The position numbers were made by a program, and so were the translations under genes. From Nocardioides aurantiacus (GTDB lineage: Bacteria > Actinomycetota > Actinomycetes > Propionibacteriales > Nocardioidaceae), in NCBI RefSeq assembly GCF_003752505.1, contig NZ_RKHO01000001.1:3286001-3350000 (forward strand): DNA of 64,000 nt. Direction: 5' to 3'. Shown here one piece after another: positions 21,926-25,323 of this stretch (position 1 is the first letter of the stretch; the number at the start of each line of letters is the position of its first letter). The notes below the pieces were generated by a model. That model searched no databases. It was not told the origin of the DNA and saw only the letters and a program-made list of their open reading frames with translations.

Positions 21926-22078
21926 GTCGGGCAGAAGGGGCCCTCGTCGGTCTCCGCGTTCGCAAGGGGAAGGCAAGCGCGGACGACCCGACGGGGGCCC
22001 CGACGACGTTTCCCCCGCCGACGTGCGACTTCTGGCGCAAACCCCCACGGCGCGTGCACGGACAAGGGAGACTGCCGC

Positions 22079-22120
22079 GTGGAGCACCGTCGCGCAATCA
22101 GTGAAGGAAGTGACACGTGA
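22079..22120 (+). CDS. Possible 13-codon leader peptide coupled to kaiC
   Basis: A short frame begins at GTG, has AGGGAG eight bases upstream, and reads [13 protein letters not shown]. Its TGA stop overlaps the kaiC GTG by the same 4-base GTGA arrangement used at the next two junctions of the operon. It could be a translated leader that loads ribosomes onto kaiC. Short frames with a ribosome site do occur by chance, and kaiC has its own AAGGAAG site inside this frame, so the call is tentative. Confidence 0.3.
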
Positions 22121-23835
22121 CCACGTCCGGGAGTGGTGTGACCGGTCTGCGCAAGGCGCCGACCGGCATCACCGGGTTCGACGAGATCACCAACGGGGGC
22201 CTCCCCCGCGGCCGTCCGACCCTCGTCGCCGGCTCGGCGGGCGCGGGCAAGACGCTCTTCGGGCTGGAGTTCCTGGTGCGCGGGGCCATCGAGCACGACG
22301 AGCCCGGGGTGCTGCTGGCCTTCGAGGAGGCCGCCCCCGACATCGCCACCAACGTCGCGTCGATGGGCTTCGACCTCCCGGCGCTCGAGGCCGAGGGCAA
22401 GATCGCGATCGACTCCTTCCGGCTCGACCCGGCCGACTTCATCGAGGCCGGCCAGTTCGACCTCGAGGGGCTGTTCATCCGCCTCGAGCTGGCGGTGGCC
22501 TCCGTCGGCGCCCGGCGCGTGGTGCTCGACACCATCGAGGTGCTCTTCGCCGCGCTGCCCAACGTGGCCGTGGTCCGCAGCGAGCTCAACCGGCTGTTCC
22601 GCTGGCTCAAGGAGCGCGACCTCACCGTCGTGATCACCGGCGAGCGCGGCGGCGGCGAGGACCAGCTGACCCGCATCGGGATCGAGGAGTTCGTCTCCGA
22701 CTGCGTCGTGGTCCTGGACCACCGTGTCGAGGACGGCCTGTCGACGCGACGGATGCGCGTCACGAAGTACCGCGGCTCGCTCCACGGCACCAACGAGTAC
22801 CCCTTCCTGATCACCGCCACGGGCATCGTCGCGGTCCCGATCACCTCGATGGGCCTCACCTACGAGGCCTCGGACGAGCGGATCACCACCGGGATCGCCG
22901 AGCTCGACGAGATGCTGAGCGGCGGCATCTACCGCGGCTCGGCGATGATGATCAGCGGCTCCGCCGGCACCGGCAAGACCAGCATCGGCGCGACCATGGC
23001 GGCCGCCTCGTGCGCCCGCGGCGAGTCGGTGCTGTTCGTCTCCTTCGAGGAGTCGCCCGCCCAGCTGACCCGCAACATGCGTTCGATCGGGATCGACCTC
23101 GAGCGCTGGACCGAGGCCGGGCTGCTCCAGCTGCACTCGGTGCGTGCCACCGCGTTCGGGCTGGAGGAGCACCTCGCCCAGCTGCACCGGCTGGTCGACG
23201 AGCACCAGCCGCGGCTGGTCGTGCTCGACGCCGTGGTCAGCCTGGGGCGGAGCGGTTCGGGCCACGACGCCTCGCAGGTCCTGGCCCGCGACCTCGACCT
23301 GCTCAAGAGCCGCGGCGTGACCTCGGTGATGACGACGCTGACGCGCACCACCGAGGCCGAGAACAGCGAGGTGGAGGTCTCCTCGCTCGTCGACACCTGG
23401 CTGCTGCTGCGCAACCACGAGACCAACGGCGAGCGCAACCGGCTGATGTTCGTGATCAAGAGCCGCGGCACGTCGCACTCCAACCAGGTGCGCGAGTTCG
23501 TCCTCAGCGGCGACGGACCTCACCTGGTCGAGGTCTACGTCGGACCCGAGGGCGTCCTGACGGGCTCCGCGCGGGTCGAGCAGTCGCTGCGCGAGCAGGC
23601 CATGGCCGCCGCACGCGAGGACGAGCGGGTCCGCCGTCGTCGGTCCCTGGACCAGCGCTCGGCCGCGCTGGAGGCACAGATCGCCTCCCTGCGGGCGGAG
23701 CTGGACTCCGACCGCGAAGAGTTCGAGAGGTTGGTCGCGGAGGAAGCAGCCGCGCACGAGGTGGACGAGGAGGCACGAACGTCGATGGCACAGCGACGAG
23801 GAGCCCAGGACGTCCGGTCAGGGGCGGGGTCGTGA
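22117..23835 (+). CDS. kaiC: KaiC-like double RecA-fold ATPase
   Basis: A 572-residue KaiC homologue, the ATP-driven autokinase/ATPase core of Kai timing systems. Both RecA domains are complete. The first has Walker A GSAGAGKT at 39-46 and the catalytic Glu pair at 70-71; the second has GSAGTGKT at 281-288 and Glu pair at 311-312. The residues aligned with the cyanobacterial phosphosites S431/T432 are S422/S423 in EVSSLVDTW. The [16 protein letters not shown] block matches the KaiC end of the second domain. An added tail of about 85 residues (about 485-572) is predicted coiled coil ([20 protein letters not shown]), longer than cyanobacterial KaiC (519). It is the first main gene of the kaiCB-PAS-receiver operon. 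No kaiA is present. Confidence 0.95.
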
Positions 23836-24173
23836 CGGAGACCTGGGAGGACGACGACACCGCGGGTGCGACCGGGCAGGGACGCGAGCTCTACGACCTG
23901 CGGCTCTACGTGGCCGGACAGTCACCGCGCTCGGTCCGGGCGGTGGAGAACCTCCGCCGCGTCTGCGACGAGCACCTCGCGGGCCGCTACCGCGTGGAGG
24001 TCATCGACCTCCTGGTCAACCCCGCGCTGGCCCGCGGCGACGAGATCGTGGCCGTGCCGACCTTGGTGCGCAAGCTGCCCGACCCGATCCGCAAGATCAT
24101 TGGGGACCTCTCCGACACCGACAAGGTGCTGGTGGGCCTGCAGCTGCGCGCACCCGAGAGCGGTGGCGCGTGA
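23832..24173 (+). CDS. kaiB: KaiB-like thioredoxin-fold protein
   Basis: A 113-residue KaiB homologue. After an acidic 20-residue start, the core reads [21 protein letters not shown], then [12 protein letters not shown], and the signature [20 protein letters not shown]. The length and motif order match KaiB, which binds the KaiC ring after a fold switch. The GTG overlaps the kaiC stop (GTGA) and its own stop overlaps the PAS gene, so the four genes are strictly coupled. In known systems KaiB opposes KaiC phosphorylation; here, without KaiA, it may instead set ATPase or reset timing, which is inference. Confidence 0.95.
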
Positions 24174-24934
24174 GCACGGCCCGGGACGACGACGACACCG
24201 TCTTCCTGGCCCAGCTGCAGGAGCAGATCTCCACGCTGCAGCGCACCCTCAACGCCATCGGCGGCGGCAGCGGCATCGACGCCGTCGTCCTCGGCGAGGG
24301 TGCGGACGAGCAGGTCTTCTCGCTGACCAGCGCCGACCGGCCCTACCGCGTGATCGTGGAGAACATGGGCGAGGGCGCGATGACGGTCTCCGAGCACGGC
24401 GTGGTCCTGTACGCCAACCCGCAGGTCGCCTCGTTCCTCGGCGTCGACGCCCAGTCGATGCCCGGACGCGACATCGCCGACTACGTCTCGGTCGACCAGC
24501 TCCCCACCCTGACCACGCTGCTCACCTCCTCCGAGCAGCCGACCCGGCGCGCGGAGCTGACGCTGCCCACCACCGAGGGCGAGCTGCCGTGCCTGGTCGC
24601 GGCGACCGACCTCGACGTCGACGGCGTGCTGGTGCGCTGCCTGGTCTTCACCGACCTCACCATGCAGAAGCTGGTCGAGCACCAGGTCGCCGTCGACTCC
24701 GCCCGCGCCGAGCGGACCCTCGTGGCCGCCGAGGTCAACGACACCATCGTGCAGGGGCTGGTGGCCGCCGAGATGGCGCTCGACCTCGGCCAGACCGACT
24801 TCGCCCGCAGCATCGTGGCCCGGACCTCCGGCCACGCCCGCCACTGGATCGGAGAGCTGGCCGGGGGTGAGTCGGTGGAACCGGGAACCGCCGTACGCAC
24901 CGGGCCCGCTCGGAGCGGCTCGGAGAACCCATGA
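24170..24934 (+). CDS. PAS protein with histidine-kinase-like dimerisation segment lacking the His
   Basis: A 254-residue cytoplasmic protein. A short coiled coil (about 10-30) precedes a PAS domain (about 58-165: [30 protein letters not shown], and a C-terminal FTDLT strand). Residues 178-232 resemble the HisKA_3-type phospho-transfer helix pair: [17 protein letters not shown] aligns with ERxRIARELHDxxxQxL, but the His position is Asn190. No ATP-binding HATPase domain follows. It therefore looks like a sensor/dimeriser rather than a working kinase. It lies between kaiB and a receiver gene, with 4-base overlaps on both sides, so it probably links KaiBC state to the receiver. Confidence 0.8.
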
Positions 24935-25323
24935 CGACCGGACTCAACGTGATGGTCGTCGACGACTCCGACGACCTGCGCGACCTCATCAGCATGGTGA
25001 TCCGTCGCCACCCCCACGGGTGGCGCGTCGTGGCCACGGCGACGGAGGGACGTGAGGCCGTCGACGAGGCCCGCGCCAACCAGCCCGACCTCGTGCTGCT
25101 CGACATCGCGATGCCGGTGATGGACGGCATGGAGGCGCTGCCGCTGATCCGGCAGGCCGCGCCCGGTGCCACGGTCGTGATGCTCTCGGGCTACCCGTTC
25201 GAGACCGCCGGCCGCGGGGCGCTGGACGCCGGGGCGCACGGCTACCTGGAGAAGTCCGACCTGGTCAAGAGCCTCATCCCCCGCCTGGAGAAGATCCTCG
25301 AGGGCAGCCCGCGGGGGGCCTGA
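24931..25323 (+). CDS. Stand-alone response regulator receiver
   Basis: A 130-residue CheY-like receiver without an output domain. The acidic pair is D11-D12, the phospho-acceptor is D58 in LLDIAMP, the switch Ser is S86 in VMLSG, and the conserved Lys is K108 in YLEKSD. All phosphorylation residues are intact even though the neighbouring PAS protein lacks its His. A phosphate donor must therefore be another kinase, KaiC itself or a small molecule. The ATG overlaps the PAS stop by ATGA, and it is the last gene of the Kai operon. No hairpin terminator was seen in the 40 bases before the convergent hydratase gene. Confidence 0.93.
   Translation: MTTGLNVMVVDDSDDLRDLISMVIRRHPHGWRVVATATEGREAVDEARANQPDLVLLDIAMPVMDGMEALPLIRQAAPGATVVMLSGYPFETAGRGALDAGAHGYLEKSDLVKSLIPRLEKILEGSPRGA

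Follow-up and report, generated by a model that had tools for sequence, protein, structure and literature searches.

The locus described here lies in a window of 64,000 nucleotides (contig NZ_RKHO01000001.1, positions 3,286,001 to 3,350,000) of the actinobacterium Nocardioides aurantiacus, whose genome consists of one contig of 4.06 Mb, and comprises four plus-strand genes that run in the same direction. They encode KaiC, KaiB, a protein with a PAS domain and a receiver standing alone, and at every junction the stop of one gene and the start of the next share 4 bases. An initial annotation of the window had reported this gene set and its GTGA/GTGA/ATGA coupling, both of which are borne out, and Pfam and NCBIfam searches confirmed all four families; the start that it gave, 22079, lies outside the kaiC frame, while its other boundaries are exact. 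The features are listed below in window coordinates.

22117..23835, plus strand: kaiC, assigned to the kaiC2 type; GTG start, 572 amino acids, two ATPase domains, two serines (SS) at residues 422-423, long C-terminal extension
23832..24173, plus strand: kaiB, single copy; GTG start, 113 amino acids, GTGA overlap with kaiC
24170..24934, plus strand: PAS protein with N-terminal coil, PAS domain and C-terminal HisKA_3-like hairpin that is predicted to be kinase-dead; GTG start, 254 amino acids, GTGA overlap with kaiB
24197..24700, plus strand: coil+PAS module common to proteins encoded beside kaiB; residues about 10-177, from an alignment of 16 proteins including that of the window
24695..24916, plus strand: hairpin without the histidine and without an ATPase domain; 10-residue motif at residues 188-197, with Asn190 in place of His and Asp191 and Gln195 of DxxxQ kept
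24931..25323, plus strand: stand-alone receiver; ATG start, 130 amino acids, full catalytic set D11 D12 D58 S86 K108, ATGA overlap with the PAS gene

In the window and its relatives, all nine kaiB-PAS junctions seen, all eight PAS-receiver junctions and seven of the eight junctions between kaiC and the first kaiB retain the 4-base overlap, the exception being L087. All eight gene-by-relative comparisons gave a ratio of nonsynonymous to synonymous substitution rates (dN/dS) below 0.5, with the PAS gene the highest (0.36 and 0.46). That the PAS gene is decayed was ruled out by these ratios and by an 11-residue hairpin motif that is identical in all eight aligned short PAS proteins, the most distant of which is 41% identical overall; the PAS fold itself scores 36.5 bits against a Pfam cut-off of 22.6.

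KaiC reaches 658 bits with NF006799 (cut-off 408), stays below the cut-off of the cyanobacterial KaiC model TIGR02655 (336 vs 546 bits), and carries the Walker A motifs GAGKT and GTGKT and EE pairs in its two ATPase domains. The kaiC2 group is defined in passages of PMC10076222 by two phospho-site serines and a long C-terminal tail. In the window protein the phospho-site reads VSSLVD and the tail, counted from GVLTG onward, is 94 residues long (97 in the KaiC of Rhodobacter sphaeroides), while the two cyanobacterial KaiC1s included have ST at this site and 29 and 31 residues after GVLTG. The best PDB match is 8dba, the R. sphaeroides KaiC, at an E-value of 5.9e-171 over query residues 7-562, tail included. 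A tree of 48 KaiCs, from which two KaiC pieces (L188) were excluded, unites the nine cassette KaiCs in a single clade (99/95) with three Geodermatophilaceae sequences and four cyanobacterial KaiC2s as the sister group, and the longest inner split of the tree separates them from cyanobacterial KaiC1 and other short-tailed KaiCs; on the cassette side, SS and the long tail are not both present in L086, L091, L101, L107, L114 and L116. As to the cyanobacterial clades against which the initial annotation had proposed to compare KaiC, the protein groups with the kaiC2/R. sphaeroides type and not with cyanobacterial KaiC1. Judged by its sequence, the window KaiC is of the kaiC2 type and closest to the KaiA-independent hourglass KaiC of R. 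sphaeroides.

KaiB scores 90 bits against a Pfam cut-off of 27 and falls below the cut-off of the equivalog model NF006798 (100.4 vs 110 bits); its best PDB match is 8fwj_M, the R. sphaeroides KaiB (E 7.8e-31), and it is the only KaiB match in its genome at E <= 0.001. Given this single KaiB-domain match, no SasA-like protein was seen in the genome, nor did a KaiA search return any match there, Synechococcus elongatus being the only positive among 14 control genomes. According to PMC10076222, the R. sphaeroides pair works as an hourglass that responds to the ATP/ADP ratio as its driver; the kinase activity is independent of KaiA, and the KaiC tail builds a bundle of 12 helices.

The first ~175 residues of the PAS protein are made up of a coil, an AIxxGxxDAxV stretch and the PAS domain, and can be aligned with 15 other kaiB-adjacent proteins from Actinomycetota, Cyanobacteria, Alphaproteobacteria and a Syntrophaceae metagenome-assembled genome (MAG), with nine invariant columns. 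What follows this part is variable: among 20 scanned coil+PAS proteins the output was a kinase in eight, GGDEF+EAL in four, SpoIIE in three, GGDEF in two and HD in one, and two had no assignment, one being cut by a contig end and the other followed by a separate kinase gene. All but one of the 20 adjoin kaiB, the remaining one (L123) having no kaiB in its stretch. Matches reaching residue 16 or earlier occurred in nine other genomes of the phylum sample, in seven of them beside a KaiB above cut-off. From the linkage to kaiB and the exchangeable outputs, we infer that the coil+PAS module reads the state of KaiC/KaiB. The earlier view of this protein as a signalling gene thus stands, but it is more than a plain PAS input sensor, a role rejected on account of its C-terminal hairpin, which lacks the histidine and the ATPase domain and carries a phosphatase motif.

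This hairpin, the last 75 residues, aligns weakly with HisKA_3, at E 0.22 for the whole protein and 0.032 for the hairpin alone; both scores (12.5 and 15.2 bits) are below the Pfam cut-off of 24. Positions 1-33 of the HisKA_3 model align with hairpin residues 6-38, so placed that Asn190 falls at the position of the acceptor His, as located from HisKA_3 kinases of the same genome, and Asn occupies this position in all eight aligned short PAS proteins, that of the window included. Five residues follow the hairpin, without a HATPase Pfam match, and the ATPase domain is absent. Having neither the His nor an ATPase domain, the hairpin is predicted to be unable to accept or transfer phosphate. Retained are D191 and Q195, spaced as DxxxQ, in a helix predicted for residues 164-205; a second helix is predicted for 209-230, with block-mean predicted local distance difference test scores (pLDDT) of 77 to 93 over residues 181 to 230, and the four best Foldseek matches of the model are LOV-histidine kinases. 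The DxxxQ motif is reported, in passages of PMC3510030, to be required for phosphatase activity in NarX and CheZ.

A census of 53 distinct hairpin copies, which are not independent of one another and were drawn from two profile searches and the cassettes with duplicates over residues 11-40 removed, found the Asp of DxxxQ in 53 and the Gln in 52, whereas the acceptor position held Asn in 34, His in 14, Gln in 3 and Ser in 2 (seven rows were assigned by eye, L168 was removed from 54 rows, and L167 is sub-threshold). Leaving out the seven cassette copies gives Asn in 27, His in 14, Gln in 3 and Ser in 2 of 46, and a rough 60% reduction leaves 39 copies with Asn in 25, His in 10, Gln in 2 and Ser in 2. 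Profile A4 was built solely from Asn-bearing hairpins and is biased toward Asn; profile A6, with His and Gln members, was run on 66 genomes of another class, 11 of which were positive, five of these already so in the phylum search. There, 21 of 296 genomes were positive, two of them (G511, G399) by ordinary-looking HisKA_3 kinases only (L167, L168); the window's own genome gave one match. Across 29 diverse hairpins the Asp of DxxxQ is the sole column without exception, and in the control set of seven HisKA_3 kinases from the same genome the His is present in all seven and the Gln of DxxxQ in five. It is chiefly because the Asp/Gln pair is kept while the His varies that we infer a receiver phosphatase of the CheZ kind in this hairpin. 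No known family accounts for it: Pfam gave weak HisKA_3 matches in nine of the 12 members (E 1.2e-4 at best, with that of the window below cut-off), five other members weakly matched single unrelated families, and NCBIfam returned weak kinase matches only (best E 3.9e-4). A published account of this hairpin was not found in the open-access literature.

The adjoining receiver scores 81 bits against a Pfam cut-off of 30, and the Pfam scan revealed no output domain in it. CheY-like receivers depend on a catalytic set of DD, D, S/T and K; the corresponding D11, D12, D58, S86 and K108 are invariant in eight of eight aligned receivers. A receiver adjoins (33) or is fused to (4) 37 of the 53 hairpin copies, or 30 of 46 without the cassettes; the fusions of hairpin and receiver in one chain are L151 (L131), L164, L172 and L219, and in L151 a kinase gene lies further downstream. 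Compared with the 26 other receivers in the same genome, the window receiver scores 60.2 bits at best, and this value is exceeded by the best receiver, not always the adjoining one, of 23 of 30 kai-less hairpin-receiver loci. Because most of these loci outscore the receivers of the same genome, hairpin and receiver seem to travel together.

Taking together the features legible in the DNA, namely the gene set, its conservation, the loss of the His and the ATPase domain, the retention of DxxxQ and the complete receiver, we propose a KaiC2-KaiB system without KaiA, an hourglass-type timer or a sensor of energy state, with a kinase-dead phosphatase output on its own receiver, a reading we put forward tentatively and regard as nearly an even call. 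By analogy with the R. sphaeroides relative, KaiC would autophosphorylate on its two serines, driven by the ATP/ADP ratio and with the long C-terminal tail in place of KaiA, and KaiB would bind KaiC and help its reset. The coil+PAS module of the third protein would sense the slow KaiC/KaiB state and relay it along the long helix to the hairpin, where Asp and Gln, as in CheZ and HisKA_3 kinases, might strip phosphate from the receiver or not, according to that state. KaiBC could thereby set the rate, or the occurrence, of phosphate loss from the co-encoded receiver, which would be charged from elsewhere, by another kinase or acetyl phosphate, and, having no output domain, would presumably act through protein contact. 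We also consider it possible, though doubtful, that a KaiBC timer here writes time by dephosphorylation, through a PAS-controlled kinase remnant, without His or ATPase domain, from an unnamed HisKA_3-hairpin phosphatase family inherited together with its receiver, which would have become an exchangeable output of the KaiBC core, and that coil+PAS is a general socket for kaiC2-kaiB cores across phyla, into which kinases, cyclic-di-GMP enzymes, HD hydrolases and phosphatases are fitted.

Several observations weigh against the main proposal. The structural model is of limited quality (mean pLDDT 72.6, predicted template modelling score (pTM) 0.47), and the 50 Foldseek matches shown have TM-scores of 0.32-0.43 and are mostly bare PAS domains. 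No adjoining or fused receiver is present in the stretch examined for 16 of the 53 hairpins. Coil+PAS also occurs without a KaiB match in two of the nine genomes mentioned above (L123 in G526; a weak match in G622). Besides the Asp, hairpin columns A11, L22, A25 and R68 are at least 90% conserved, and docking could explain part of the hairpin conservation. This last point belongs to the strongest rival, in which the hairpin is a non-catalytic adaptor that holds or releases the receiver, with Asp and Gln as part of the docking face. The loss of the His and the ATPase domain, a receiver that adjoins the hairpin and is related between loci, and the want of an output domain in that receiver would all suit such an adaptor. 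We nevertheless think it somewhat unlikely, as an exceptionless Asp, a near-invariant Gln and a varying acceptor form the pattern expected for a kept phosphatase pair.

The 14 hairpins that keep the His likewise count against the phosphatase proposal, since some of them may take part in phosphotransfer. They would agree with a partnership between the hairpin and a separate full kinase, as a mixed dimer or as a relay with one of the seven HisKA_3 matches of the genome, KaiBC then acting on that kinase. The uniform Asn of the eight short PAS proteins, however, argues against any relay through the PAS protein, and no kinase gene lies within the cassette; we regard this partnership as improbable. 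Somewhat in the same range, and quite improbable in our view, is a kaiBC-type regulator of stress or energy that keeps no time. The named relatives in Marmoricola and Nocardioides are not known as phototrophs, which would fit such a regulator. So would a further observation that tells against a timer: in Synechocystis, knock-out of kaiC2B2 left rhythm and fitness unchanged, according to PMC9846126, where a fitness effect of the same KaiC group in Rhodopseudomonas is also cited. Against such a regulator, PMC10076222 treats the R. sphaeroides KaiBC, which shares the type of the window proteins, as an hourglass that serves as a timer. A self-sustained clock like the circadian one of cyanobacteria is hardly credible and was rejected, even though KaiC and KaiB are present and intact, on the missing KaiA and the KaiC type, the window KaiC lying across the tree from the two cyanobacterial KaiC1s, and no SasA-like protein having been seen.

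The cassette is patchily distributed. We sampled 245 genomes of the family, including 24 of the genus, and 396 of the phylum for KaiB, with the window's genome counted in both; KaiB was found in 15 of the former and, above cut-off, in 22 of the latter. Six of the 24 genus genomes have KaiB and all six carry kaiC-kaiB(-kaiB)-PAS-receiver, so the gene order on which the initial annotation had staked its reading is conserved in close relatives. Two genomes of another genus in the family hold it whole (L093) or in part (L096, where kaiB is damaged and 14 kb of sequence showed no kaiC). Among named organisms, the cassette occurs in Marmoricola sp. Leaf446, Marmoricola sp. URHB0036, Nocardioides aequoreus, a Marmoricola MAG, Nocardioides sp. 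CFH 31398 and an uncultured Nocardioides, several of them identical with genomes already in the sample counts, and Nocardioides psychrotolerans carries the cassette in part. In all six genus loci with both flanks seen (the window, L084, L087, L088, L089 and L090), the cassette sits between a PHP-domain gene and an enoyl-CoA hydratase gene, names read from the translations. Flanks were inspected in 12 of the 18 genus genomes without KaiB; ten of these have the same two genes side by side, separated by no more than about 600 bases, and the other two (L202 and L203) do not show the adjacent pair. This agrees with the insertion into an otherwise conserved region that had been suggested from the window; a tree of three flanking proteins is too weakly resolved to separate one gain from repeated loss in the genus.

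Further observations concern variants of the locus. Several relatives have two tandem kaiB genes (L084 5523-6235, L087 7080-7804 and others) where the window has one. In N. psychrotolerans (L136/L096), the PAS protein and receiver are retained beside the damaged kaiB, while kaiC was not detected in the stretch, and this output pair may outlive its timer. A second kind of KaiC, ST-type and short-tailed, occurs with KaiB in Actinomycetota including the same family (L092, L097, L110, L111), with receiver proteins near some and no match to a coil+PAS protein in the stretch. At L095 (6929-8485), a KaiB domain, PAS, HisKA and HATPase are combined in one protein beside a kaiC, a SasA-like layout, and this genome (G175, of the same family) also carries the partial cassette L096. 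Upstream of the window kaiC by ~45 bases, an AGACTGC box (22069-22075) is identical at 7 of 7 bases in six aligned cassette upstream regions, in which little else around it is conserved; it is perhaps a promoter or regulator site. The 13-codon open reading frame that begins at 22079 (22079-22120) ends inside the kaiC start codon (GTGA); by eye, it is kept in the closest relative (Leaf446) and missing from the four or five further sequences in the alignment. It is probably due to chance, and may account for the start given in the initial annotation. An Rfam scan near kaiC gave one match, sub-threshold and within kaiC, which was taken as chance.

The combination of genes, which the initial annotation knew from no characterised actinobacterial timer, is indeed present, yet kaiBC followed by a signalling gene was known already: kaiC-kaiB clusters with a downstream histidine kinase or GGDEF/EAL gene were described as early as 2011 (PMC3164672), and much work exists on the KaiBC pair of R. 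sphaeroides. The first kaiC context of PMC3164672 resembles the window in that a signalling gene lies downstream of kaiBC; the version with hairpin and receiver is not mentioned in the text passages compared. The nearest described system, the operon of Rhodobacter (Cereibacter) sphaeroides KD131 (plasmid pRSKD131A; PDB 8dba, 8fwi, 8fwj), shares the order kaiC-kaiB-sensor, the SS site and long tail of KaiC, and the coil+PAS start of the sensor (residues 15-171 vs 8-158, E 1e-7), but its sensor is an HWE histidine kinase, whose place in the window is taken by a hairpin lacking both His and ATPase domain, together with a separate receiver. Geodermatophilaceae loci of the form kaiC-kaiB-kaiB-PAS-SpoIIE (L141 and L142 by Pfam scan, L140 by eye), whose KaiCs belong to the sister group described above, have the same coil+PAS and differ in their two kaiB genes and SpoIIE-type phosphatase output. 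With NarX-type HisKA_3 kinases and CheZ, the window hairpin has in common DxxxQ on a helix; it differs from the kinases in having neither His nor ATPase domain. It is also putatively PAS-controlled, and its likeness to CheZ is one of motif. The KaiABC-SasA-RpaA system of Synechococcus joins a KaiC/KaiB core to a two-component output. Core and kind of output are common to both, whereas the window has a KaiC of another clade and a single-domain receiver, and neither KaiA nor a SasA-like protein was found. As the initial annotation had supposed, a search of the open-access literature yielded no account of a Kai timer from Nocardioides or any other actinobacterium; two freshwater actinobacteria are reported to lack Kai homologues (PMC8591293).

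The dedicated signalling module surmised in the initial annotation agrees with our reading of the locus. In the window the proposed output comes down to a single small PAS protein and a single receiver, which are encoded together and belong to families in which no membrane parts are predicted; the means by which KaiBC systems lacking KaiA signal outside the cyanobacteria is therefore testable in vitro with four proteins. The hairpin family keeps the phosphatase residues of histidine kinases and drops the kinase ones, and some genes annotated as "PAS protein" in Actinomycetota may be dedicated receiver phosphatases. If the proposed mechanism holds, this timer may signal by taking phosphate off a small partner protein rather than by adding it.

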